Positions 1,468 to 9,708 of a stretch of DNA of 64,000 nucleotides are shown here, in pieces. The position numbers were made by a program, and so were the translations under genes. The notes beneath the pieces are model-generated. The model saw only the letters and a program-made list of their open reading frames with translations, was not told the origin of the DNA and did no database searches. This DNA is from Catellatospora sichuanensis (lineage in GTDB: Bacteria > Actinomycetota > Actinomycetes > Mycobacteriales > Micromonosporaceae): assembly GCF_007483665.1 (NCBI RefSeq), contig NZ_VIQO01000011.1:186001-250000 (forward strand), given 5' to 3'. Every line of letters starts with the position of its first letter. The stretch's first letter is position 1.

Positions 1468-2568
1468 TCACGCCGGCTGCGCGGATCCAGCCGGGGCGAC
1501 GCTGTCCGACTTGGCCACCATGTAGTCCAACCGGGCCAGCAGATGGCGGGCGACCTGGTCGCCGGTGGCCCATTCGAACGCCGGATCCGGCCGGCAGTCG
1601 TTGCGCATCGCCTGGTTCATCAGCTGCCACAGCTCGGACGTCGACGCGGTCGCTTCGCCGTGCACGGTCATCCCGGCCTCGCTCATGGCCTTGACGCGGA
1701 GCCCGAACGAGTCCGGGTACGACACGGCAGGATGGGTCATGGCCAGCACCGGAACCCGGTTCCACACGAGGTCGCAGGTGACGGTGCCGTTGGCGTTGGC
1801 CACCACCAGGTCGGCGGCGGCGTAGTACTTCTCCGGTTCGGCGGTGAACCCGGCCCAGACGATGTCGGCCGCCCGCTCGGCGGGCACCTGGCAGAACGGT
1901 TCCGCCAGCACGAACAGCCGGTGTCCGGGCGGTGAGTGAGCCAACCAGGTCCGTACGGTGAGGTCGGCGATCGCCGCGTTGTCGACCATCGCGGTCATTC
2001 CGCCGACGGTGAGCACCGCGACCGTGTCGGACGCCGCGACCCCCAGTTCGGCGCGTGCCGTGGCGCGGTCGACGCCGAAGTCGCCCACCACCGGCCCGAA
2101 CGCCTGAATCGGGGTGGTGAAGCCGACCGGGCCGGGATGGGCGGCGGAGAAGTCGAGCAGCAGGATCTCCCCTGCCTGGTCCAGGATCGGATCGGACTCC
2201 GGGGCGCCCAGTTCGGAGTAGAACCAGTCGGTCAGCAGGATCGCCCGCCGGCGCCAGCGCCTGGCGCAGAACGACAGCGCCCATACGACCTCGTCGGCGA
2301 TCACCAGATCGAAGGGGTCGTATCGGTCCATCAGCTCCCAGATGCGCTTGCCCGCCGCCGGGGACATGTCCTCGTGGTCGCCGATGCCCATGTCGGCGAA
2401 GGTCTCGCCGTACAGCTCCAGGTAGACGGCGGCGCTGCCGGAGGCCATCACCTGGATGTCGACGTCGGGCCGCAGGGTGCGCATGGCTTTGACGATCCGC
2501 AGGTCCCTGGCGGCATGCCCGAAGCCGTGGCCGCGGGCTAGCAGCAGTACTCGTGGTGCGGAGCTCAT
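1468..2568 (-). CDS. Glycosyltransferase, MurG/GT1-like (last gene of the RiPP operon)
   Basis: A 366-residue GT-B type glycosyltransferase. The N-terminus VLLLARGHGFGHAARD is the glycine-rich acceptor-side loop typical of MurG-like and related GT1/GT28 enzymes. The C-terminal half has AVLTVGGMTA and the sugar-nucleotide-binding segment ADLVVANANGTVTCDLVWNRVPVLAM. ATG 2568 overlaps the stop of the upstream flavoprotein gene as ATGA, so translation is probably coupled. As the ninth gene behind a RiPP precursor, its acceptor is most likely the modified peptide, for example Thr44, Ser51 or a cysteine thiol. The sugar donor cannot be read from the sequence. Confidence 0.8.
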   Translation of the reverse strand: MSSAPRVLLLARGHGFGHAARDLRIVKAMRTLRPDVDIQVMASGSAAVYLELYGETFADMGIGDHEDMSPAAGKRIWELMDRYDPFDLVIADEVVWALSFCARRWRRRAILLTDWFYSELGAPESDPILDQAGEILLLDFSAAHPGPVGFTTPIQAFGPVVGDFGVDRATARAELGVAASDTVAVLTVGGMTAMVDNAAIADLTVRTWLAHSPPGHRLFVLAEPFCQVPAERAADIVWAGFTAEPEKYYAAADLVVANANGTVTCDLVWNRVPVLAMTHPAVSYPDSFGLRVKAMSEAGMTVHGEATASTSELWQLMNQAMRNDCRPDPAFEWATGDQVARHLLARLDYMVAKSDSVAPAGSAQPA

Positions 2569-3176
2569 GGCGCCGTCTCCCGGAGTCGTCGGCGCAACAG
2601 CTCCACGGAGCCCAGCGCGGCGGTGAACGGCGGCGGCCCGTGTGCGTCGTCGCGGCCGGTGGTGAAGCTGAGCACCGGCACGGGTGGCAGCACGGTGATC
2701 GTCGGCCGCTGCGCCAGCGCCGCCACGTGTGCGGCCGTGACGGGACTGTCCCAGCCGCCGGGCGGCAGCGCCGGGGCGACGACCACCGGTGCGGTGCTGC
2801 ACTGGATCGCCAGCAGGCTGGGCGAGTCGGCCAGCCCGAGCGCCAGCCGGGCCAGGTAGTTCAGGCCGGCCGGGTACACCATGACGGCCTGCGCCCACTG
2901 TTGCAGGGTGACATGCAGGGCCTCGGCGGCCGGCTGGGGCCACTCGTCGACGATCGCCTCCCGGCCGGTGATGCACCCGGCGGCGGTGGCGGTGATGAAC
3001 TGCAGCGCCGATCGCGTGAGCACGACCTGGACCTCCAGTTCCGGGTACGCCGAGCGCAGCCATGCCAGGTCCCGGGGCAGGAAGGCGGCGTTGAGCGAGC
3101 CGGTGGCCACCAGCAGCAGCCGCCGGAACCCCAGCGGTGGCAGCCTGGGGTCGGCGGACGTGGTCGGTTGGTCCAT
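2565..3176 (-). CDS. HFCD-family flavoprotein, EpiD-like peptidyl-cysteine decarboxylase
   Basis: This 203-residue protein has the layout of homo-oligomeric flavin-containing cysteine decarboxylases (EpiD, MrsD, PPC decarboxylase). LLLVATGSLNAAFLPRD is the flavin-binding N-terminus. The active-site histidine lies in EALHVTLQQWAQ, and VYPAGLNYLARLALGLADS matches the conserved asparagine-containing motif (PaTANtlaKiA-GiaDn in relatives). EpiD-type enzymes oxidatively decarboxylate a C-terminal cysteine to an aminoenethiol. The precursor encoded at 9482-9658 ends in exactly such a cysteine, which supports the assignment. The start follows the SagB stop with no gap, and its own stop overlaps the next glycosyltransferase start. 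A coenzyme-A PPC decarboxylase is less likely in this operon. Confidence 0.85.
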   Translation of the reverse strand: MDQPTTSADPRLPPLGFRRLLLVATGSLNAAFLPRDLAWLRSAYPELEVQVVLTRSALQFITATAAGCITGREAIVDEWPQPAAEALHVTLQQWAQAVMVYPAGLNYLARLALGLADSPSLLAIQCSTAPVVVAPALPPGGWDSPVTAAHVAALAQRPTITVLPPVPVLSFTTGRDDAHGPPPFTAALGSVELLRRRLRETAP

Positions 3177-4526
3177 TCACTCGTCCTGACCGGGAAGGGA
3201 GCCGATGACGATCTCGCCCACCGAGGACACCTCGAGCGGGTCGAGGCCGGTCGCATCGGCGAAGTCTGCGGCGTCGCCGGTGCCGACGGCGCACGCGCCG
3301 AGGCCCATCGCGGTGGCGCTGAGATACACCGATTGCAGCAGCACGCCGGCGTTGCGCAGCGTCAGCGAGTAGGCCAGGTCGCCGTACTTGCGGGTGGGCC
3401 GGTCGAACCGGGCCGCGAGGCTGATGAGCAGTGGCGGCACCGACTCACGGTTGATCGCCAGGTAGGCGGCGTTGATCATCCGGACGAGCGGCACGGTGTC
3501 CCGGGTGACCACGCCCAGCGCGTGCCGGTCCGGCAGGTAGCGGTAGACGCCGGGAGCGAGGTCGTGGCACGCGCGGACGGTCAGGTAGAAGTCGAGTTCG
3601 TGCATCGCCCCGGCCGACGGTGCCGGCCGCAGGGTGTGCGAGTAGAGCCGGCCGGCGGCGGGGTCGGCGTCCAGCCGCTGCTGGATGCGCGCCACCCTGT
3701 ACAGCAGCTCACCGAGTTGCGGCAGGGTCAGGGGTGCGCGGCCGAACCGGCGGACCGAGCGGCGGCTCTCCATGACGTCGGCCAGCGGCGGGTCGGTGTG
3801 CCGCAATGCCGCCAGGTCGGGCACCGGAAGCGGGAGGTCGGTGTCGGCGGCGGGCGCGGCGGGTGGTTCGTCCAGGGTGCCCGGCGCTGCCAGGCGGGGA
3901 TCGACCAGGCCGCTGCGGCTGCGGGTGTGGGTCCAGGCCGCGTGCGGCGGGCTCACGGGCTGCGGGCCGGGTGCGGCCACCAGGCCGACCGCGGCGAGCA
4001 GCCGCACCAGTTGCGGGCCCCCCGGGGCCAGCCGTCCCGCCGCCGCCGGTGTGGTCGGTGCGCACAGCCCGGCCGCCACCGCCGCGAGTTCGGGTCGGTG
4101 CAGGTGCACGACCGTGCCGTCGCGGGCGGACTCGACCACGGCGTGGTCGCCGAACCGCCGCAGCAGCGCGTACGGCGACAGCTGCACTGCCTGGTCGGCA
4201 GCCGGTTCCAGGTCCGGCCGCAGGTCGGCGCGCCGGGAGTGGATACGGGCCGTGGCGACATCGCCGTGCTCGTCAGCGCATCCGAGGGTGATCACGCCGG
4301 TGGCGAGCAGCCGCCTGATGAGCGCGTCACCCTGCTCGGCGTCCAGCGCCAGCCGGTCGCGAAGCTGCTGCCAGGTCAGCGGTCGGAGCAGCGCTCGCAG
4401 GGCAGCGGCCACCGAACCGTCCGCGTCGTGCAGTGCCACCGGGTCGCGGTCCGCGACGGTGATCATCAGGTCGGCGGTCGCGGTGGAGTCCATGGCCGGC
4501 CTGCCGTCGAGGCGCAGTGTGATCAT
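3177..4526 (-). CDS. SagB-type FMN-dependent azoline dehydrogenase
   Basis: A 449-residue protein. The C-terminal half (from about residue 225) is a nitroreductase-fold dehydrogenase of the SagB/McbC type. It shows ESRRSVRRFG at the FMN-binding start, PSAGAMHELDFYL, PGVYRYLPDRHAL, then KYGDLAYSLTLRNAGVLLQ and a C-terminal VGEIVIGSLPG. SagB enzymes oxidise thiazolines to thiazoles. The first 220 or so residues form an extension resembling the winged-helix and linker regions often fused to actinobacterial SagB proteins. ATG 4526 overlaps the stop of the upstream glycosyltransferase (ATGA). Unlike the neighbouring half-domains, this copy looks complete. Confidence 0.88.
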   Translation of the reverse strand: MITLRLDGRPAMDSTATADLMITVADRDPVALHDADGSVAAALRALLRPLTWQQLRDRLALDAEQGDALIRRLLATGVITLGCADEHGDVATARIHSRRADLRPDLEPAADQAVQLSPYALLRRFGDHAVVESARDGTVVHLHRPELAAVAAGLCAPTTPAAAGRLAPGGPQLVRLLAAVGLVAAPGPQPVSPPHAAWTHTRSRSGLVDPRLAAPGTLDEPPAAPAADTDLPLPVPDLAALRHTDPPLADVMESRRSVRRFGRAPLTLPQLGELLYRVARIQQRLDADPAAGRLYSHTLRPAPSAGAMHELDFYLTVRACHDLAPGVYRYLPDRHALGVVTRDTVPLVRMINAAYLAINRESVPPLLISLAARFDRPTRKYGDLAYSLTLRNAGVLLQSVYLSATAMGLGACAVGTGDAADFADATGLDPLEVSSVGEIVIGSLPGQDE

Positions 4527-5695
4527 CGCCGCCCGTTCTCCCGGGCGTGGCGGTATCCGGCCCGGACGGCGTCGAGCATGAGTTCGGTCAGCGGCTGCTC
4601 CAGTTCGTCGAGCACGTCGCGGGTGGCGACCGGGTGCAGGTGTGCCTGCGGCAGGGTGGTGAACGCCCGTCGTGTCACAGGGTCGGCCAGCAGGGTTTCC
4701 AGGGCCGCCTCGTCGGCGGCGGGGAATCGGCTGGGCACCGGGGTGCCGTCGGGCCGGTAGAGCCGCACCGATGCTGCGGCGAGGCAGGCACCGACGGCGA
4801 ACGGCGTCAGCCACAGCCGGTCCAGCAGCGGGTCGACGAGCCGGTGATGCTGCCGCCGCCACTGGTCGGTGTGCGCCCGGGCCAGTTCGGTCACCCGGGC
4901 CGGGTCCAGTCCGGTGTCGGCCAGCCACTGGCCGGTGGTTCTGATGGACCAGGGCAGCCCGCCGTCGCCGATCGGTTTGCGCTGTGCGTGGTAAGGCTGC
5001 GACCCGAACTCGGGCATCTGGTAGTGCGCGAAGGTGGGCAGCAGGTCGGCCATGGCGAGCAGGTCGCCCGGCGCGGGGGCGGGCACGTCGTCGGCGAAGC
5101 ACGCCGAACGGCGCGGCCCCTGGTGGGTGTTGCCGGTCAGGCTGTCAGGCGAGTCGTGGTCGATGAGGTTGGGGATGCGGCAGATGGCGGTGACCTGCCG
5201 TTCGCGCAGGAAGTTCATCAGCGCGACGTCGTCGGTGGGGGTCCAGGCGCGCAGGTTGGCGGTGGCTGCCTGGCCGAAGTCCCGGGCGATCGCGGCGGGC
5301 AGCACCAGGGCGACGCTGGGCACGTACTCGTCGACCACTTCGGCCCACGTCGCCCCGGTGAGGGCGGCCAAGCGCAGGTGGTGGGCCGTGTTCGAGGTCC
5401 ATTCGGTGAACAGCGCCAGGGCCGTGTCCGGGTACTGCGCGATCGCGGCGTGCACCGCGTCGGCGAAGCCCTGGCACGGCACGGCGTCGTCCTGCAGCAC
5501 CATGTGGTGGGTGGCGTGTTCGGGGACGAAGGACCAGGCGACGGCGGCGGTGCGCAGCGACGACGGCGACCCGTGCGGTTCGGGGTCCACGACGATGTCG
5601 GGCTTGAGTTCGGCCAGCCTGTCGGCGAGCGCTTCGGCGAGGGTGAGCCGGCTGGGATGCGCCATGATCACGGTGGAGAGCTGGTGTGCGGTCAT
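4523..5695 (-). CDS. GT-A-like glycosyltransferase in the RiPP operon
   Basis: A 390-residue protein whose first 240 residues look like a GT-A glycosyltransferase. It opens with STVIMAHPSR and has a metal-binding acidic motif in MVLQDDAVPCQGF. TPTDDVALMNFL is a plausible catalytic-base region, and PNLIDHDSPDSLTGNTHQG resembles the conserved segment near the end of GT2/GT25-like domains. The last 150 residues contain a helical region that I do not recognise. It overlaps both neighbours by four bases (ATGA), so it belongs to the pathway. With the MurG-like enzyme at 1468-2568 it implies a disaccharide or two glycosylation sites. The family call rests on motif reading only. Confidence 0.65.
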   Translation of the reverse strand: MTAHQLSTVIMAHPSRLTLAEALADRLAELKPDIVVDPEPHGSPSSLRTAAVAWSFVPEHATHHMVLQDDAVPCQGFADAVHAAIAQYPDTALALFTEWTSNTAHHLRLAALTGATWAEVVDEYVPSVALVLPAAIARDFGQAATANLRAWTPTDDVALMNFLRERQVTAICRIPNLIDHDSPDSLTGNTHQGPRRSACFADDVPAPAPGDLLAMADLLPTFAHYQMPEFGSQPYHAQRKPIGDGGLPWSIRTTGQWLADTGLDPARVTELARAHTDQWRRQHHRLVDPLLDRLWLTPFAVGACLAAASVRLYRPDGTPVPSRFPAADEAALETLLADPVTRRAFTTLPQAHLHPVATRDVLDELEQPLTELMLDAVRAGYRHARENGRR

Positions 5696-6165
5696 CGCGT
5701 TTCCTTGCCGGCGACGGTGGTCAGGTGGGTCATCGAGGCGTTCACTGTGGCCAGTGGCCAGGCGATCGCTTCGTCGTCGCAGGTCACCTGGTCGAAGCCG
5801 GCGCCGAGGCGGGTGGCCAGGTGGTGCGAGACGATGCCGGCGGCGAGCGCGAGTCGCCGGAAGTCGGCGGCCGAGGCGGTGGCCGGGCCGCCTAGCAGCA
5901 CGGCCACGTCGGCGGCCAGGTGCGCCAGCGGCGGTGGTTGCGGGTGGACGCGGTGCAGGAATCCGGCCGGGTCGAGGCAGTACGTGCCGGTGGGGATGGC
6001 CGTACCGCCGAAGACGGCGATGCAGGCGGTCAACGGCTCGGGCGAGGCGGCCAGCGATGCGATGACGGTGACGCCGATGTCGTCGCCGGGCCTTGGCATG
6101 CGGGCTGCGGTGAAGTCCTGTCGCAGCGCGGCGTGCAGGGCGGTGTCCTTGGGCTGTATGGGCAT
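5692..6165 (-). CDS. Small nitroreductase-like protein of the RiPP operon
   Basis: This 157-residue protein resembles only part of a SagB/nitroreductase domain. TACIAVFGGTAIPTGTYCLDP aligns by eye with the strand and PxGVYRYDP element of the full dehydrogenase, and DFRRLALAAGIVSHHLATRLGAG with its R-N-A-G helix. The ESRRSxRxF FMN-binding start is missing. It may be a non-catalytic partner of the dehydrogenase, since McbC/SagB enzymes act as dimers, or a decayed duplicate kept in frame. Its ATG overlaps the preceding stop by one base and its own stop overlaps the glycosyltransferase start. Confidence 0.55.
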   Translation of the reverse strand: MPIQPKDTALHAALRQDFTAARMPRPGDDIGVTVIASLAASPEPLTACIAVFGGTAIPTGTYCLDPAGFLHRVHPQPPPLAHLAADVAVLLGGPATASAADFRRLALAAGIVSHHLATRLGAGFDQVTCDDEAIAWPLATVNASMTHLTTVAGKETR

Positions 6166-7535
6166 CAGGGCCGCCTCGGGTAGATCCCCACGACGGCGGC
6201 CGGCTGTTCGCCGCCGTCGCGCAGTTCCAGCAGGTCGGCCAGTGCCTGGTCGACGGTGTCGGCCAGCACGGCGTCGTGGTCGGCGGTGGCCGCGGTGACG
6301 GCCGCGACGGCGCGGCCGGCGGCCAGGAACGCCCGGCGCAGGCTCTGTTCGGCGTAGGCCGCGGTCAGCCGTGCGGTGGCGGCGACGAACACGAGCACGG
6401 CGGCCGGGGTTTCGGGCAGTCCCGAGATCGGCGGGCAGGTGGTGAGGTCCCCGCGGGCGGCGACGAGGGCCTGGGCGGTCGGCGACCAGCGGTGGACCGG
6501 GTGCGGCAGGCCGTCGACGGCGAGCAGGTACGTGTCGGCGTACGGTCGGGCCGTCGCCGCGGACAGCAGCGGCCGCAACCAGGAGGGTGCCTCGCTCAGC
6601 GGTGTCCGTGGCGCCGACGCCAGGTCGATGTCGGCGGGGGCGGGGACCGTCCGATCAGCTGGGACCTGCCAGGACGGTCGCCGGTTGAGCCATTCCAACC
6701 GCCCGATCGGGCCGTCGTCGGCGAGGGTGCAGGTCGGGCAGTCGGCCGAGGGCGTGACCTCGTGGATGCTGCGGTCGAGGGTGACGGTGTCGATGCGGTG
6801 CAGGCGACGACCGGTGGCCGGCGCGGACAGCCGGGTCAGCCACGCGATGACCTCGGCGACGGTCAGGGCGCTGAGCAGTTGTGCCGCCGCGAGGCCGAGG
6901 GGTCCCGCGCCGCCGCGCCCCGCGCCGCCCAGGAAACATTGTGGACAGCTCGTGTCCGGCCCGGTGAACAGTGGCCCGAGTTCGACGTGGGAGTCGTCGC
7001 CGCCGATCCGCAGCACCGGCACCCCGGTGGCCGCCACCGAGGCCAACCGGTCGTCGTCGGCCACCGCCAGCGCGGCCGTGGTGGTGGGGTCCGCGGTGAT
7101 CGTGCCGATGCCCGACTGTGCCAGGTCGTCGGCCAGCAGGTCGCCCAGCGGGCCCGCCGCGGCGACGACGACGGCGGCTTCGGCGAGCCGCTTGCGCAGC
7201 GTCGCAGGCTGATCGGGGCTGCCGGCCGCGGCCACCGCGCGGGACAGGAAAGCGTCGGCGGCGTCGTCGCGGTCCACCACGCCGTCGTGCAGCAGGCCGC
7301 TGCGGTGCAGCAGCGCCACGGCCTGGGCCACCTGGGTGACCGGCGTCGACGTCGCCTGCGCGACCGCGGCCAGGCTGGTGCGGCCGTCCAGCAGCGGCAG
7401 CAGCCGGGGCATCAGGTCGTGCGCGGCGGCGCCGGTGAACAACCGCCGGCTGGGGCCGCCTTCGATCAGCAGTCCGTCGTCGGTGCTGATGACGGCAAGA
7501 CCGGCGGCCACCGCGGGATGAGCGAGCCGGCTCAT
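6165..7535 (-). CDS. E1-like cyclodehydratase partner with RRE-like start and nitroreductase-like tail
   Basis: A 456-residue protein. Residues 1-85 resemble a PqqD/RRE-type winged helix that binds leader peptides (LDGRTSLAAVAQATSTPVTQVAQAV). Residues 90-300 form an E1/ThiF-like region with two zinc-type CxxC pairs, CPQC and CPTC, as in the C proteins of azoline cyclodehydratases. The last 130 residues look like a worn nitroreductase domain: YLLAVDGLPHPVHRWSP resembles FYLTV-PGVYRY of SagB, and YAEQSLRRAFLAAGRAV resembles its later helix. ATG 7535 overlaps the upstream stop (ATGA). Its likely role is to deliver the precursor to YcaO. The fused tail is unusual. Confidence 0.75.
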   Translation of the reverse strand: MSRLAHPAVAAGLAVISTDDGLLIEGGPSRRLFTGAAAHDLMPRLLPLLDGRTSLAAVAQATSTPVTQVAQAVALLHRSGLLHDGVVDRDDAADAFLSRAVAAAGSPDQPATLRKRLAEAAVVVAAAGPLGDLLADDLAQSGIGTITADPTTTAALAVADDDRLASVAATGVPVLRIGGDDSHVELGPLFTGPDTSCPQCFLGGAGRGGAGPLGLAAAQLLSALTVAEVIAWLTRLSAPATGRRLHRIDTVTLDRSIHEVTPSADCPTCTLADDGPIGRLEWLNRRPSWQVPADRTVPAPADIDLASAPRTPLSEAPSWLRPLLSAATARPYADTYLLAVDGLPHPVHRWSPTAQALVAARGDLTTCPPISGLPETPAAVLVFVAATARLTAAYAEQSLRRAFLAAGRAVAAVTAATADHDAVLADTVDQALADLLELRDGGEQPAAVVGIYPRRP

Positions 7536-8155
7536 ACCGATGCTCCTTTCGACACCTGTCGGGCGGTTTCGGCGATGGTGGCGGCGAGCCGGGGGTCTCC
7601 CCAGGTGTCGGCGGCGCCGCAGCGGGGGCAGCCGTGCCTGGCGATGAGGTCCACCCGGCTCACCATCATCGTGGCCAGGTCGACCATGACGGTCATGCCG
7701 GGCTGTGGCGACTGGAGCACGAGCCGGGCGAGCGCTTCGGCGGCCCGCAGGTGGTGCGGCAGATGGCCGTAGACCCCGAGCGTGTCGTCGGCGCGGTACG
7801 CGGCCAGCAGCTCGGCGCGGTGCCGAGACTTCGGGTCGTGCTGCTCGCGGCGGAAGCGGTAGCAGTCGTAGCACGGTCCGCCGGGAGCCACCCAGGGTCC
7901 GACGACCAGGAAGGGATGGTCCACCACGACCGGCAGCCAGGCGATGGCACGGTCGTGCGCCAGCTCGTCGAACAGCTCGGTCCGGGCCGCGTCGGGCCGC
8001 CACGACACGAGCACCATCGCCTGCGCGGCGCCCGGTCGGGGCCGGTCGGGGTCCAGGGCCGACGCACCGTCGGCCAGCAGGCGGCTCTGGACGGCGTGAC
8101 CGAACTCCCCCACGGCGGCGACCGCGACGTCGGTCAGGCGAACGGTTGCGGCCAC
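7532..8155 (-). CDS. Small E1-like cyclodehydratase subunit (TOMM leader-binding protein type)
   Basis: The GTG start at 8155 is chosen because AGGAG lies eight bases upstream; further upstream the frame runs into the ycaO gene, which it overlaps by 22 bases. The 207-residue product has GGPCYDCYRFRR in the middle and CPRCGAADTW near the end, a CxxC...CxxC zinc tetrad. Such tetrads are typical of the E1-like domain that precedes or accompanies YcaO in thiazole-forming systems. It has no N-terminal winged helix; that function seems to sit in the next gene. The two proteins together probably form the complete partner of YcaO. Confidence 0.7.
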   Translation of the reverse strand: MAATVRLTDVAVAAVGEFGHAVQSRLLADGASALDPDRPRPGAAQAMVLVSWRPDAARTELFDELAHDRAIAWLPVVVDHPFLVVGPWVAPGGPCYDCYRFRREQHDPKSRHRAELLAAYRADDTLGVYGHLPHHLRAAEALARLVLQSPQPGMTVMVDLATMMVSRVDLIARHGCPRCGAADTWGDPRLAATIAETARQVSKGASV

Positions 8156-9399
8156 GGGTTCAGCTCCTGTTCCGGGGATGCCGGCACGCCCATCGCCGCC
8201 GGTGCCTCGATCAATCGCGGGTGGGCGCGGAACTGCGCGAGCGGCGACAGCGACATGGGCTGCAACCGCGGCACCAGCACGGTCAGCGCGACGAGCCCGA
8301 CCCGGCGCAACTCCGCCGACGTGCGGTCGACGCACACCGCCTGCGCCCCGATCCGGCGCAGCTGCTCCAGCACCACCGGCAGCGCCTGCCGCGGGTCTTC
8401 GGGCAGTTCCAGGCACCTGTCCGAGACGGGCCGCCGGGCGAGGTCCTCGGTGAGGAACGCGAAGGCTTCGGCCCGCTGCGGCACGGCCATGTACCGGGCG
8501 CCGTCCATGATGTCGGCGAACTCCGCGTACTCGGTGACGGGCGACGTGCCGTGGTGGAACAGCTGCCGGATGTTGAGGATCTCGATGAGGGCCTTCTCGG
8601 CCGCCTGCGCCAGGGTTCGTCCGGTGGCCGCACCGACCAGATTGGCGGCCTCGGGGTCATGGGGCGCCTGCTGCAGCGCGTACACCGTCGGGATGCCGAC
8701 GTCGGTGGTGGCGTTGAACAGCACGTTGTTCAGGAAGCGGCGGCGGCCGTGGTCGAGCAGGTCACGCACGGCCGGGCTCATCGCGGCGGGTCCGAGCAGC
8801 GGCAGCCGCAGCCGGCGCAGCCAGGTGACGGCGATGGCGTCGCGTTCGATGACCTCCAGCAGCCCGCCGAGCAGCGCGCGCTCTGGTTCGACGTGCACGG
8901 CGTACCCGGTGGAGATCTGGAACACGAAGCGTTCGGCCGGTTCCGGGTGCAGCCCGTAGCAGGCCATGACGGCGGGCACCCAGGTCGGTTCGCCGGACGT
9001 CAGGTCGGTGCCGCGCATCCAGCGGATGACGGCGTCCGGATCGGGCGGGACGACCTTGCAGTCGGGGTGGGCATATTCGGCTTCGGAGCAGCGGGGCAAC
9101 CGGCTCAGGTCGACGACGGCACCGGGCAGGTCCGCGGCGGCGGCCCGGACCGTGTCGGCGTGCGGATAGCTGCCCACGTATCGTTCGGCGGCCTCGGCGA
9201 TCGCGATGGTGGCGGCGAGATCGGCGTCGAAGCTGCGTCCCGTGCCGATCTGCGGGCTGCCGCCGTGATGGTCGGTGTGCGAGTCCCCGCTGGACGCCAC
9301 GACATGGCTCAGCCGGTCCAGGCCGCGGTCGGGCAGCAGCGGACGCAAGCCGCTCACCACGCCCAGCGGGCTCACCAGGCTCGCGAGATCGACGCTCAT
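8134..9399 (-). CDS. YcaO azoline-forming cyclodehydratase
   Basis: A 421-residue YcaO protein. ATG 9399 is chosen because GGGGGAAGG precedes it. ATP/Mg-binding signatures are visible in TIAIAEAAERYVGSYP (the SxxExxER-like helix), GLLEVIERDAIAVTW and AAEKALIEILNIRQ. It ends in NPWPQPFA, which contains the PxPxP tail important for catalysis in azoline-forming YcaO enzymes. These enzymes use ATP to turn Cys (or Ser/Thr) plus the preceding amide into azolines. No TfuA partner, which would suggest thioamide formation, is nearby, and two E1-like partners are. It follows the precursor gene after 82 bases and is probably on the same transcript. Confidence 0.92.
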   Translation of the reverse strand: MSVDLASLVSPLGVVSGLRPLLPDRGLDRLSHVVASSGDSHTDHHGGSPQIGTGRSFDADLAATIAIAEAAERYVGSYPHADTVRAAAADLPGAVVDLSRLPRCSEAEYAHPDCKVVPPDPDAVIRWMRGTDLTSGEPTWVPAVMACYGLHPEPAERFVFQISTGYAVHVEPERALLGGLLEVIERDAIAVTWLRRLRLPLLGPAAMSPAVRDLLDHGRRRFLNNVLFNATTDVGIPTVYALQQAPHDPEAANLVGAATGRTLAQAAEKALIEILNIRQLFHHGTSPVTEYAEFADIMDGARYMAVPQRAEAFAFLTEDLARRPVSDRCLELPEDPRQALPVVLEQLRRIGAQAVCVDRTSAELRRVGLVALTVLVPRLQPMSLSPLAQFRAHPRLIEAPAAMGVPASPEQELNPWPQPFA

Positions 9400-9481
9400 G
9401 ACCTTCCCCCGAAGCCGCATCCACTGAGGACGCGACGGTGGCCGGCATCGCCGTGCCACCGTCGCGGATGGAGATCGAAGA

Positions 9482-9658
9482 TCAGCAGCCGCAGCCGCAC
9501 GCGCAGGAGCAACCGCAGCCGCAACCCGTGATCGGGGCGGCCTCGGGGTCCTGCGGGGTCAGCTCGCCGGCGTTGCGCATGATCTCGGCGACCAGCTGGT
9601 CCCAGTCGCCCGCGGAGACGTCCTGGACGTCCAGGTCAAGGTGCTTGACGGGTCCCAT
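9482..9658 (-). CDS. RiPP precursor peptide with seven X-Cys repeats
   Basis: A 58-codon gene that length filters would miss. GGAGG stands four bases before ATG 9658; a second ATG directly upstream (9661) is too close to it. The leader is acidic and helical (MGPVKHLDLDVQDVSA, then DWDQLVAEIMRN and a TPQDPEAAPI linker). The last 15 residues are TGCGCGCSCACGCGC: seven cysteines, each after Gly, Ser or Ala, with Cys58 the final residue. Adjacent YcaO, E1-like and SagB genes predict conversion of the cysteines to thiazoles. A terminal cysteine suits the EpiD-like enzyme in the operon. The exact leader-core boundary is not visible; after the AAP at 40-42 is plausible. Confidence 0.87.
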   Translation of the reverse strand: MGPVKHLDLDVQDVSAGDWDQLVAEIMRNAGELTPQDPEAAPITGCGCGCSCACGCGC

Positions 9659-9681
9659 CATTCCTCCAAGCCAGTGGATCT

Positions 9682-9708
9682 GTTAACAAACCTTGCGGAG
9701 AAGTTAAC
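9682..9708 (-). promoter_or_regulatory. Promoter/operator of the RiPP operon (paired GTTAAC sites)
   Basis: Two GTTAAC palindromes (9682-9687 and 9703-9708) start 21 bases, about two helical turns, apart and lie 24 bases before the precursor start. Read on the minus strand, TTAACT could serve as -35 and TAACAG as -10, with a 16-base spacer, so a bound protein would cover the promoter. The ten bases GTTAACAAAC recur at 219-228. Confidence 0.5.

Follow-up and report, generated by a model that had tools for sequence, protein, structure and literature searches.

Gene content and conservation of the operon

The 64,000-nucleotide stretch of Catellatospora sichuanensis DNA analysed here (the window) belongs to contig 7 of a genome of 9.45 Mb and harbours, on its minus strand from 9661 down to 1468, a nine-gene operon for a putative ribosomally synthesised and post-translationally modified peptide (RiPP). 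The placement and strand of all genes were verified (Table 1). A gap of 82 bp lies between the precursor gene and the YcaO gene, and from YcaO through GT_B, the second of two putative glycosyltransferase genes, the operon is contiguous by overlap or abutment. The overlaps are 22 bp (YcaO/F-protein), 4 bp (F-protein/E1-like), 1 bp (E1-like/orf157) and 4 bp each (orf157/GT_A, GT_A/SagB and HFCD/GT_B); the SagB gene abuts the gene for a homo-oligomeric flavin-containing cysteine decarboxylase (HFCD)-type flavoprotein. The original prediction had described this minus-strand operon, and its genes, overlaps, motifs and precursor of seven X-Cys units are all found where it had placed them; the gene set that it listed is complete except for a ninth gene, orf157, which it did not mention.

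Table 1. The nine genes of the operon, in transcription order (window coordinates; aa, amino acids)
Feature	Position	Strand	Evidence
Precursor peptide, 58-59 aa (start 9661 or 9658), core ITGCGCGCSCACGCGC	9482..9661	-	Orthologues; upstream GGAGG resembling a ribosome-binding site
YcaO cyclodehydratase (D protein), C-terminus PWPQPFA	8134..9399	-	TIGR03604, 262.1 bits (curated cut-off 219.25); PF02624, E 1.2e-59
Ocin-ThiF/F-protein-like leader-binding partner, GTG start	7532..8155	-	TIGR03882, 58.6 bits (curated cut-off 36.9)
E1-like (C-protein-like) partner, possible winged-helix leader-binding domain	6165..7535	-	Sub-threshold family matches; profile matches
orf157 (157 aa), possibly degenerate SagB/nitroreductase-like partner	5692..6165	-	Weak hhalign match to SagB-like proteins
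GT_A, possible glycosyltransferase with a putative GT-A fold and a QDD motif	4523..5695	-	Weak profile matches
SagB-type azoline dehydrogenase	3177..4526	-	TIGR03605, 143.5 bits (curated cut-off 78.4); PF00881
HFCD flavoprotein, predicted oxidative decarboxylase of C-terminal Cys, conserved His88	2565..3176	-	PF02441, 56.2 bits (curated cut-off 22.7); CypD profile
GT_B, putative GT-B-fold glycosyltransferase	1468..2568	-	Weak matches

The gene set is kept in Catellatospora and in a second genus of the Micromonosporaceae, and is rearranged in a third. All nine genes keep one order across the window, the Catellatospora loci L012, L013 and L014 (those of genomes G006, G002 and G005, hence no extra species) and L017 (genome G024). 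In L018 (genome G037) homologues of eight of the nine genes are found; HFCD and GT_B have changed position there, and the place of orf157 is taken by a different open reading frame (ORF) of 93 aa. Ratios of non-synonymous to synonymous substitution (dN/dS) relative to L012, L013 and L014 range from 0.15 to 0.58 across all nine genes and, together with the syntenic orthologues, indicate that the operon is more than a chance arrangement. In genome G007 the precursor, YcaO, F-protein start and HFCD were checked for conservation. A search for the precursor in 201 genomes at E 0.01 returned ten with a match: five of the 11 in the genus, G024, G037 and three judged to be chance. The last three (G015, G173 and G186; E 0.001-0.007) were discarded, as their translations do not have the form of a leader plus core, and the 19 kb surrounding the G186 match (L019) contain no tblastn hit to the window proteins.

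More distant clusters in Nocardiopsis (L015) and Kutzneria (L016) combine YcaO and SagB genes and an HFCD with glycosyltransferases of the EryCIII type. The precursor, a GT1-type gene and the HFCD gene are consecutive in both; this row is adjoined in L015 by a YcaO, two SagB-like and one E1-like gene, and L016 contains two SagB-like genes, with its YcaO match placed by contig number and coordinates just beyond the stretch examined. The HFCD profile (A1) matched 17 of 394 class-level genomes at E 1e-28 and 33 of 354 family genomes at E 1e-25, searches in which the bit scores of its own source loci are the highest and are inflated because the profile was built from them. Among the 19 non-window match regions of the class-level search, examined by profiles, a strong YcaO match was seen only in Nocardiopsis kunsanensis (L059), with weak ones (68-70 bits) in L075 and L076. 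Seven of the 33 family matches are operons of this group, and a YcaO profile match was found in none of fourteen further loci examined from the remaining 26.

Predicted azole formation and C-terminal decarboxylation

Family scans against the curated cut-offs of Pfam and NCBIfam covered ten window proteins, and YcaO, F-protein and SagB exceed the cut-offs of their respective models (Table 1). The YcaO protein passes a SagD-type model, its profile lies nearest to the azoline-forming enzymes MusD, TruD and LynD, and it is the sole YcaO match in a search of the whole genome. For the E1-like partner the matches to ThiF, HTH_47 (winged-helix) and TIGR03882 are all sub-threshold, so that the predicted assignment falls short of every curated cut-off; it draws its support from a five-member profile, which matches LynD (E 4e-6), TruD and MccB, with PbtF at a mere E 0.07. 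The protein encoded by orf157 has no family match in these scans and yields a poor predicted model (mean predicted local distance difference test, pLDDT, of 51.3). The gene that follows the E1-like gene in the sister clusters is SagB-like, and hhalign aligns orf157 to these SagB-like proteins over a weak local match of 33 columns (probability 25%); it finds nothing significant between orf157 and SagB itself or the Nocardiopsis/Kutzneria SagB-like pair.

The precursor ends in GCGCGCSCACGCGC, a run of seven X-Cys units. Its core, ITGCGCGCSCACGCGC, corresponds to ITGCGCGCSCACACGC in L013, VTGCGCGCACGCGC in both L012 and L014, ISGCCASSVRCGC in L017 and GTICGCSCASCSCASCTSCGC in L018; the cores of the distant L015 and L016 read MCSCCCSSCGC and ACCCSWCGC. 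Variants in three Micromonosporaceae genera and in the Nocardiopsis and Kutzneria clusters make the rules that govern the core directly testable. Installation of thiazoles, as originally predicted, is well supported at the level of sequence by the co-occurrence of YcaO, E1-like protein, F-protein and SagB, by the absence of a second YcaO match from the genome and by Cys-rich cores conserved across genera.

The flavoprotein had been likened to EpiD. Its family membership holds, but its profile lies far closer to CypD (E 5.6e-31) than to EpiD chains (E 5e-6 to 1e-4), which rules out EpiD as the nearest relative; against the CypD model NF033753 the protein scores 82.3 bits, under the cut-off of 215. 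His88, which we take to be the conserved active-site His of HFCD cysteine decarboxylases, is present in 12 of 12 azole-linked HFCD rows (representing nine operons) and in 31 of 32 other rows. A flavoprotein match, a conserved His and a substrate that ends in Cys, the features of the HFCD family, are all found here. The HFCD tree does not separate one origin of the azole-linked enzymes from two.

As controls we took clusters with a related YcaO. At E 1e-30, 17 of 296 class-level genomes have a YcaO match; for the five closest relatives that fall outside the group (L151-L155; 262-306 bits), 20 kb apiece was analysed. The profiles for YcaO and the E1-like protein match in five of five and the F-like profile in four of five, and none of these 20 kb loci has a match to the HFCD, GT_A, GT_B or GT1 profile. 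All eight HFCD-linked azole precursors examined (seven different cores) end in CGC, whereas 13 of 13 precursor-like ORFs picked by eye in the control loci lack a Cys end, counts that are not independent because the precursors within each group share ancestry. L156, a more distant locus, likewise has no Cys-ending precursor among the ORFs listed. In four of the five azole-free HFCD loci listed (L121, L127, L060 and L063) there are five precursor-like peptides, each ending in Cys; the fifth locus, L131, has none. Family membership, the conserved His and the difference in precursor ends support the predicted decarboxylation, and we consider it likely that a CypD-type flavoprotein decarboxylates the C-terminal Cys.

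Putative glycosyltransferases and the possible fate of the enethiol

Both genes that had been called glycosyltransferases are in place, but their fold-level matches are weak. GT_B matches TIGR00661 at E 4.7e-4 over residues 6-54 and its orthologues match PF13528 (E 0.0038-0.24) and PF13692 (E 0.0098), so that this family hits glycosyltransferase models only, if always weakly. A 19-member GT_A profile finds a guanylyltransferase at E 0.0011, over the stretch that holds the QDD motif. When the 19 members are scanned singly, a GT2 model picks up two of them (best E 0.014) and nucleotidyltransferase models two and one (best E 0.003), alongside unrelated matches that are equally weak. Five-member GT_A and GT_B profiles retrieve nothing from the PDB, and the predicted GT_A model is poor (mean pLDDT 40.1). 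We read GT_A as a GT-A-type fold, which is no proof of a glycosyltransferase. The HFCD gene adjoins a putative glycosyltransferase gene in three arrangements (window and L017; L018; L015 and L016), the L015 enzyme passes the Pfam cut-offs of EryCIII-like families, and sugar-nucleotide genes are confirmed in L015 and L016.

We favour, by a little more than an even chance, the view that the operon makes a linear azole-containing RiPP, namely a polythiazole with a decarboxylated C-terminal Cys and a probable sugar. The F-protein and the E1-like protein would deliver the precursor leader to YcaO, which would turn the Cys residues of the X-Cys core into thiazolines by cyclisation, and SagB would oxidise these to thiazoles. 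The CypD-type flavoprotein would oxidatively decarboxylate the invariant C-terminal Cys, and the enethiol would most likely be closed by YcaO to a 2-substituted thiazole without the 4-carboxylate, or else be capped; the GT-A-like and GT-B-like proteins would then probably add a sugar. The order of these reactions and the site of the sugar are predicted in the same way, and so are leader cleavage and export; no peptidase and no transporter are encoded in the window's operon. If the proposal is correct, azole chemistry, C-terminal decarboxylation by a flavoprotein and probably glycosylation would be joined in one short pathway. Glycosylation, though plausible, is its weakest part.

Several observations weigh against this proposal. 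The pathway is predicted from its genes, and no product of it is known. CypD has no His at the position that the profile alignment pairs with His88, which makes this residue supportive and not decisive. In L157, a more distant, thiopeptide-like locus (148 bits), the precursor ends in Cys and no HFCD profile match is found, so the link between Cys end and HFCD is not exclusive; nor are the precursor counts independent, given the shared ancestry within each group. Lastly, neither GT_A nor GT_B reaches any curated family cut-off; for GT_B a sequence comparison with the PDB gives no match at E 0.1, and the hhalign match of GT_B to EryCIII-like glycosyltransferases extends over 30 columns at a probability of just 20%. 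These failed cut-offs, and the guanylyltransferase that is the best structural hint for GT_A, favour a distinctly less probable reading which we nevertheless take seriously: an azole RiPP with a decarboxylated end and no glycosylation, in which GT_A and GT_B serve, for example, in nucleotidyl transfer or self-protection. Set against it are the exclusive matches of the GT_B orthologues to glycosyltransferase models, the clear EryCIII-like enzyme in the same position of the Nocardiopsis HFCD cluster, and the retention of both GT_A and GT_B in L012, L014 and other operons.

The operon also raises the question of what becomes of an HFCD enethiol when no dehydroamino acid is available. No LanB-type dehydratase lies near the operon and the operon proteins have no dehydratase family match. 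Across the window genome a search aimed at Lant_dehydr_N, in which other classes (II-V) were not sought, gave a single match, L158 (G000:C7:302024-303937), about 106 kb away on the same contig and perhaps part of another RiPP cluster. G024 has such a match about 0.85 Mb from its cluster, G037 has none at E 0.001, and none lies near the Nocardiopsis and Kutzneria clusters. An aminovinylcysteine (AviCys) end group is unlikely because no LanB-type dehydratase is nearby. Its specific form, an AviCys-like thioether between the enethiol and a dehydroamino acid supplied by a dehydratase encoded elsewhere, could call on the L158 protein, and the nearest azole-free HFCD relatives do resemble the clusters of class V lanthipeptides, which make aminovinyl-methylcysteine (AviMeCys) according to the accessible part of PMC8068269. 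The distances above and the cores of L012 and L014, which have one Thr just before the first Cys and no Ser or Thr after it, leave it very improbable.

As the cluster encodes no dehydratase to supply the partner in an AviCys ring, closure to a 4-unsubstituted thiazole or capping of the enethiol is the more plausible end. Attack of the enethiol on the preceding carbonyl and loss of water would give an aromatic thiazole without a dehydrogenase, a total change of -64.02 Da relative to Cys. A bolder idea, which we regard as doubtful, is that the C-terminal enethiol is trapped as an S-glycoside (or, less radically, is closed by YcaO to the 4-unsubstituted thiazole that needs no dehydrogenase). It is suggested by the persistent pairing of HFCD with a glycosyltransferase-like gene across three arrangements whose transferases are unrelated, and by the hydroxyl-poor cores of L012 and L014, and would, if true, constitute a new end-group strategy in RiPPs.

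The product might also be a metal-binding or redox-active thiol peptide and not an antibiotic, with N,S ligands provided by thiazole nitrogen and the C-terminal enethiolate, much as N,S ligation of metal occurs in methanobactin. KatG- and Fur-like genes, read by eye, are neighbours of the operon in three Catellatospora loci, adjoining it in L012 (11745-14472) and L014 (11750-14474) and lying beside it or nearby in L020 (4342-7069); in the window genome they are about 4-5 kb from its end. This neighbourhood is not seen in the L013, L017 and L018 stretches listed and its position may simply be inherited, and the operon contains no metal-uptake gene; we consider such a function improbable.

Relation to known pathways and related loci

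The operon is real and conserved, and its novelty lies in the combination of genes and not in the enzyme families. This qualifies the original claim of a new type of cluster: in the open-licence literature, itself an incomplete sample, a cysteine decarboxylase and glycosyltransferases were not recognised together in any azole RiPP cluster, yet none of the enzyme families is new. The closest known kind, going by the accessible part of PMC4603692, is the thiopeptides in which the C/D cyclodehydratase is discrete (berninamycin/TP-1161 type). The control loci L151-L155, with thiocillin-family precursors, share separate E1-like and F-like proteins with our operon and differ in having neither HFCD nor glycosyltransferase profile matches nor a Cys-ending precursor-like peptide. 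The thiocillin-family RiPP model is matched in the three control loci tested, and both loci tested for Lant_dehydr_N proteins, L151 and L155, have them; the ten window proteins scanned show no match to a LanB-type dehydratase or pyridine synthase, by which thiopeptides are defined. Heterocycloanthracins are likewise F-protein-dependent azole RiPPs, many with Gly-Cys or Cys-Ser repeats in their precursors, but have a fused C/D cyclodehydratase, and a decarboxylase or glycosyltransferase is not named for them in the accessible text of PMC4603692. This survey of thiazole/oxazole-modified microcin (TOMM) clusters does not use words beginning with decarboxyl, glycosyl or flavoprotein in its main text.

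Other RiPP classes share parts of the chemistry. Class V lanthipeptides or lanthidins (cacaoidin, lexapeptide) also have a CypD-like Cys decarboxylase and precursors with C-terminal Cys, and cacaoidin has three glycosyltransferases in addition, but as described in the part of PMC8068269 available their chemistry is of the lanthionine/AviMeCys kind and relies on HopA1 and phosphotransferase proteins, with no YcaO azole set; neither HopA1 nor phosphotransferase is matched among the ten window proteins. Thioamitides likewise place YcaO and HFCD in one cluster; according to the accessible part of PMC8153245 their YcaO, partnered by TfuA, acts on thioamides, and what the HFCD makes becomes AviMeCys, whereas here a SagD-type YcaO accompanies SagB and the ten window proteins include no TfuA match. 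Glycosylated azole RiPPs are already known, since the persiathiacins are polyglycosylated and contain thiazoles; these are thiopeptides, and the available portion of PMC11406533 does not mention a cysteine decarboxylase. Dehydrazoles pair YcaO with a LanM-like dehydratase (PMC10676384, in the part available). The end group proposed here, if the thiazole lacks its carboxylate, would be that of one further RiPP. Bottromycin carries a C-terminal thiazole without carboxylate that arises by P450-type oxidative decarboxylation; in our operon the route would involve a flavoprotein.

Candidate tailoring and export genes surround several of the related clusters. L016 (1667-17674; Kutzneria) has several GT1-type genes, an NDP-hexose 2,3-dehydratase and P450-like ORFs around the precursor; L018 (7152-10295; G037) has a PIG-L deacetylase next to HFCD and an EamA transporter, candidates for sugar editing and export, and in L017 (2803-4638; G024) an ABC transporter, a candidate export gene, follows GT_B. 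Among the HFCD loci without azole genes, L121-L123, L125 and L126 each contain a GT1-type gene (201-213 bits), and L121, the only locus in which HopA1, M16 and luciferase domains were confirmed, resembles class V lanthipeptide clusters. L168 (9087-14107) contains a relative of GT_B (E 1.1e-31) whose gene row also includes an ORF of 57 aa that ends in AENCWSGC; this locus has no HFCD or YcaO profile match.

Relatives of GT_A adjoin YcaO-type genes in L082 (3459-8301) and L085 (7699-12349), possibly for a glycosylated thioamide RiPP; in L082, Pfam confirms both YcaO and TfuA, and a 59-aa ORF is adjacent. The window genome itself contains two GT_A paralogues, L079 (G000:C5) and L081 (G000:C26), the latter with MFS-like, FMN-reductase-like and GT1-like neighbours in the same arrangement as in L080. 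A GT_A-like family without a name recurs in several actinobacterial gene clusters, a YcaO-TfuA cluster included.

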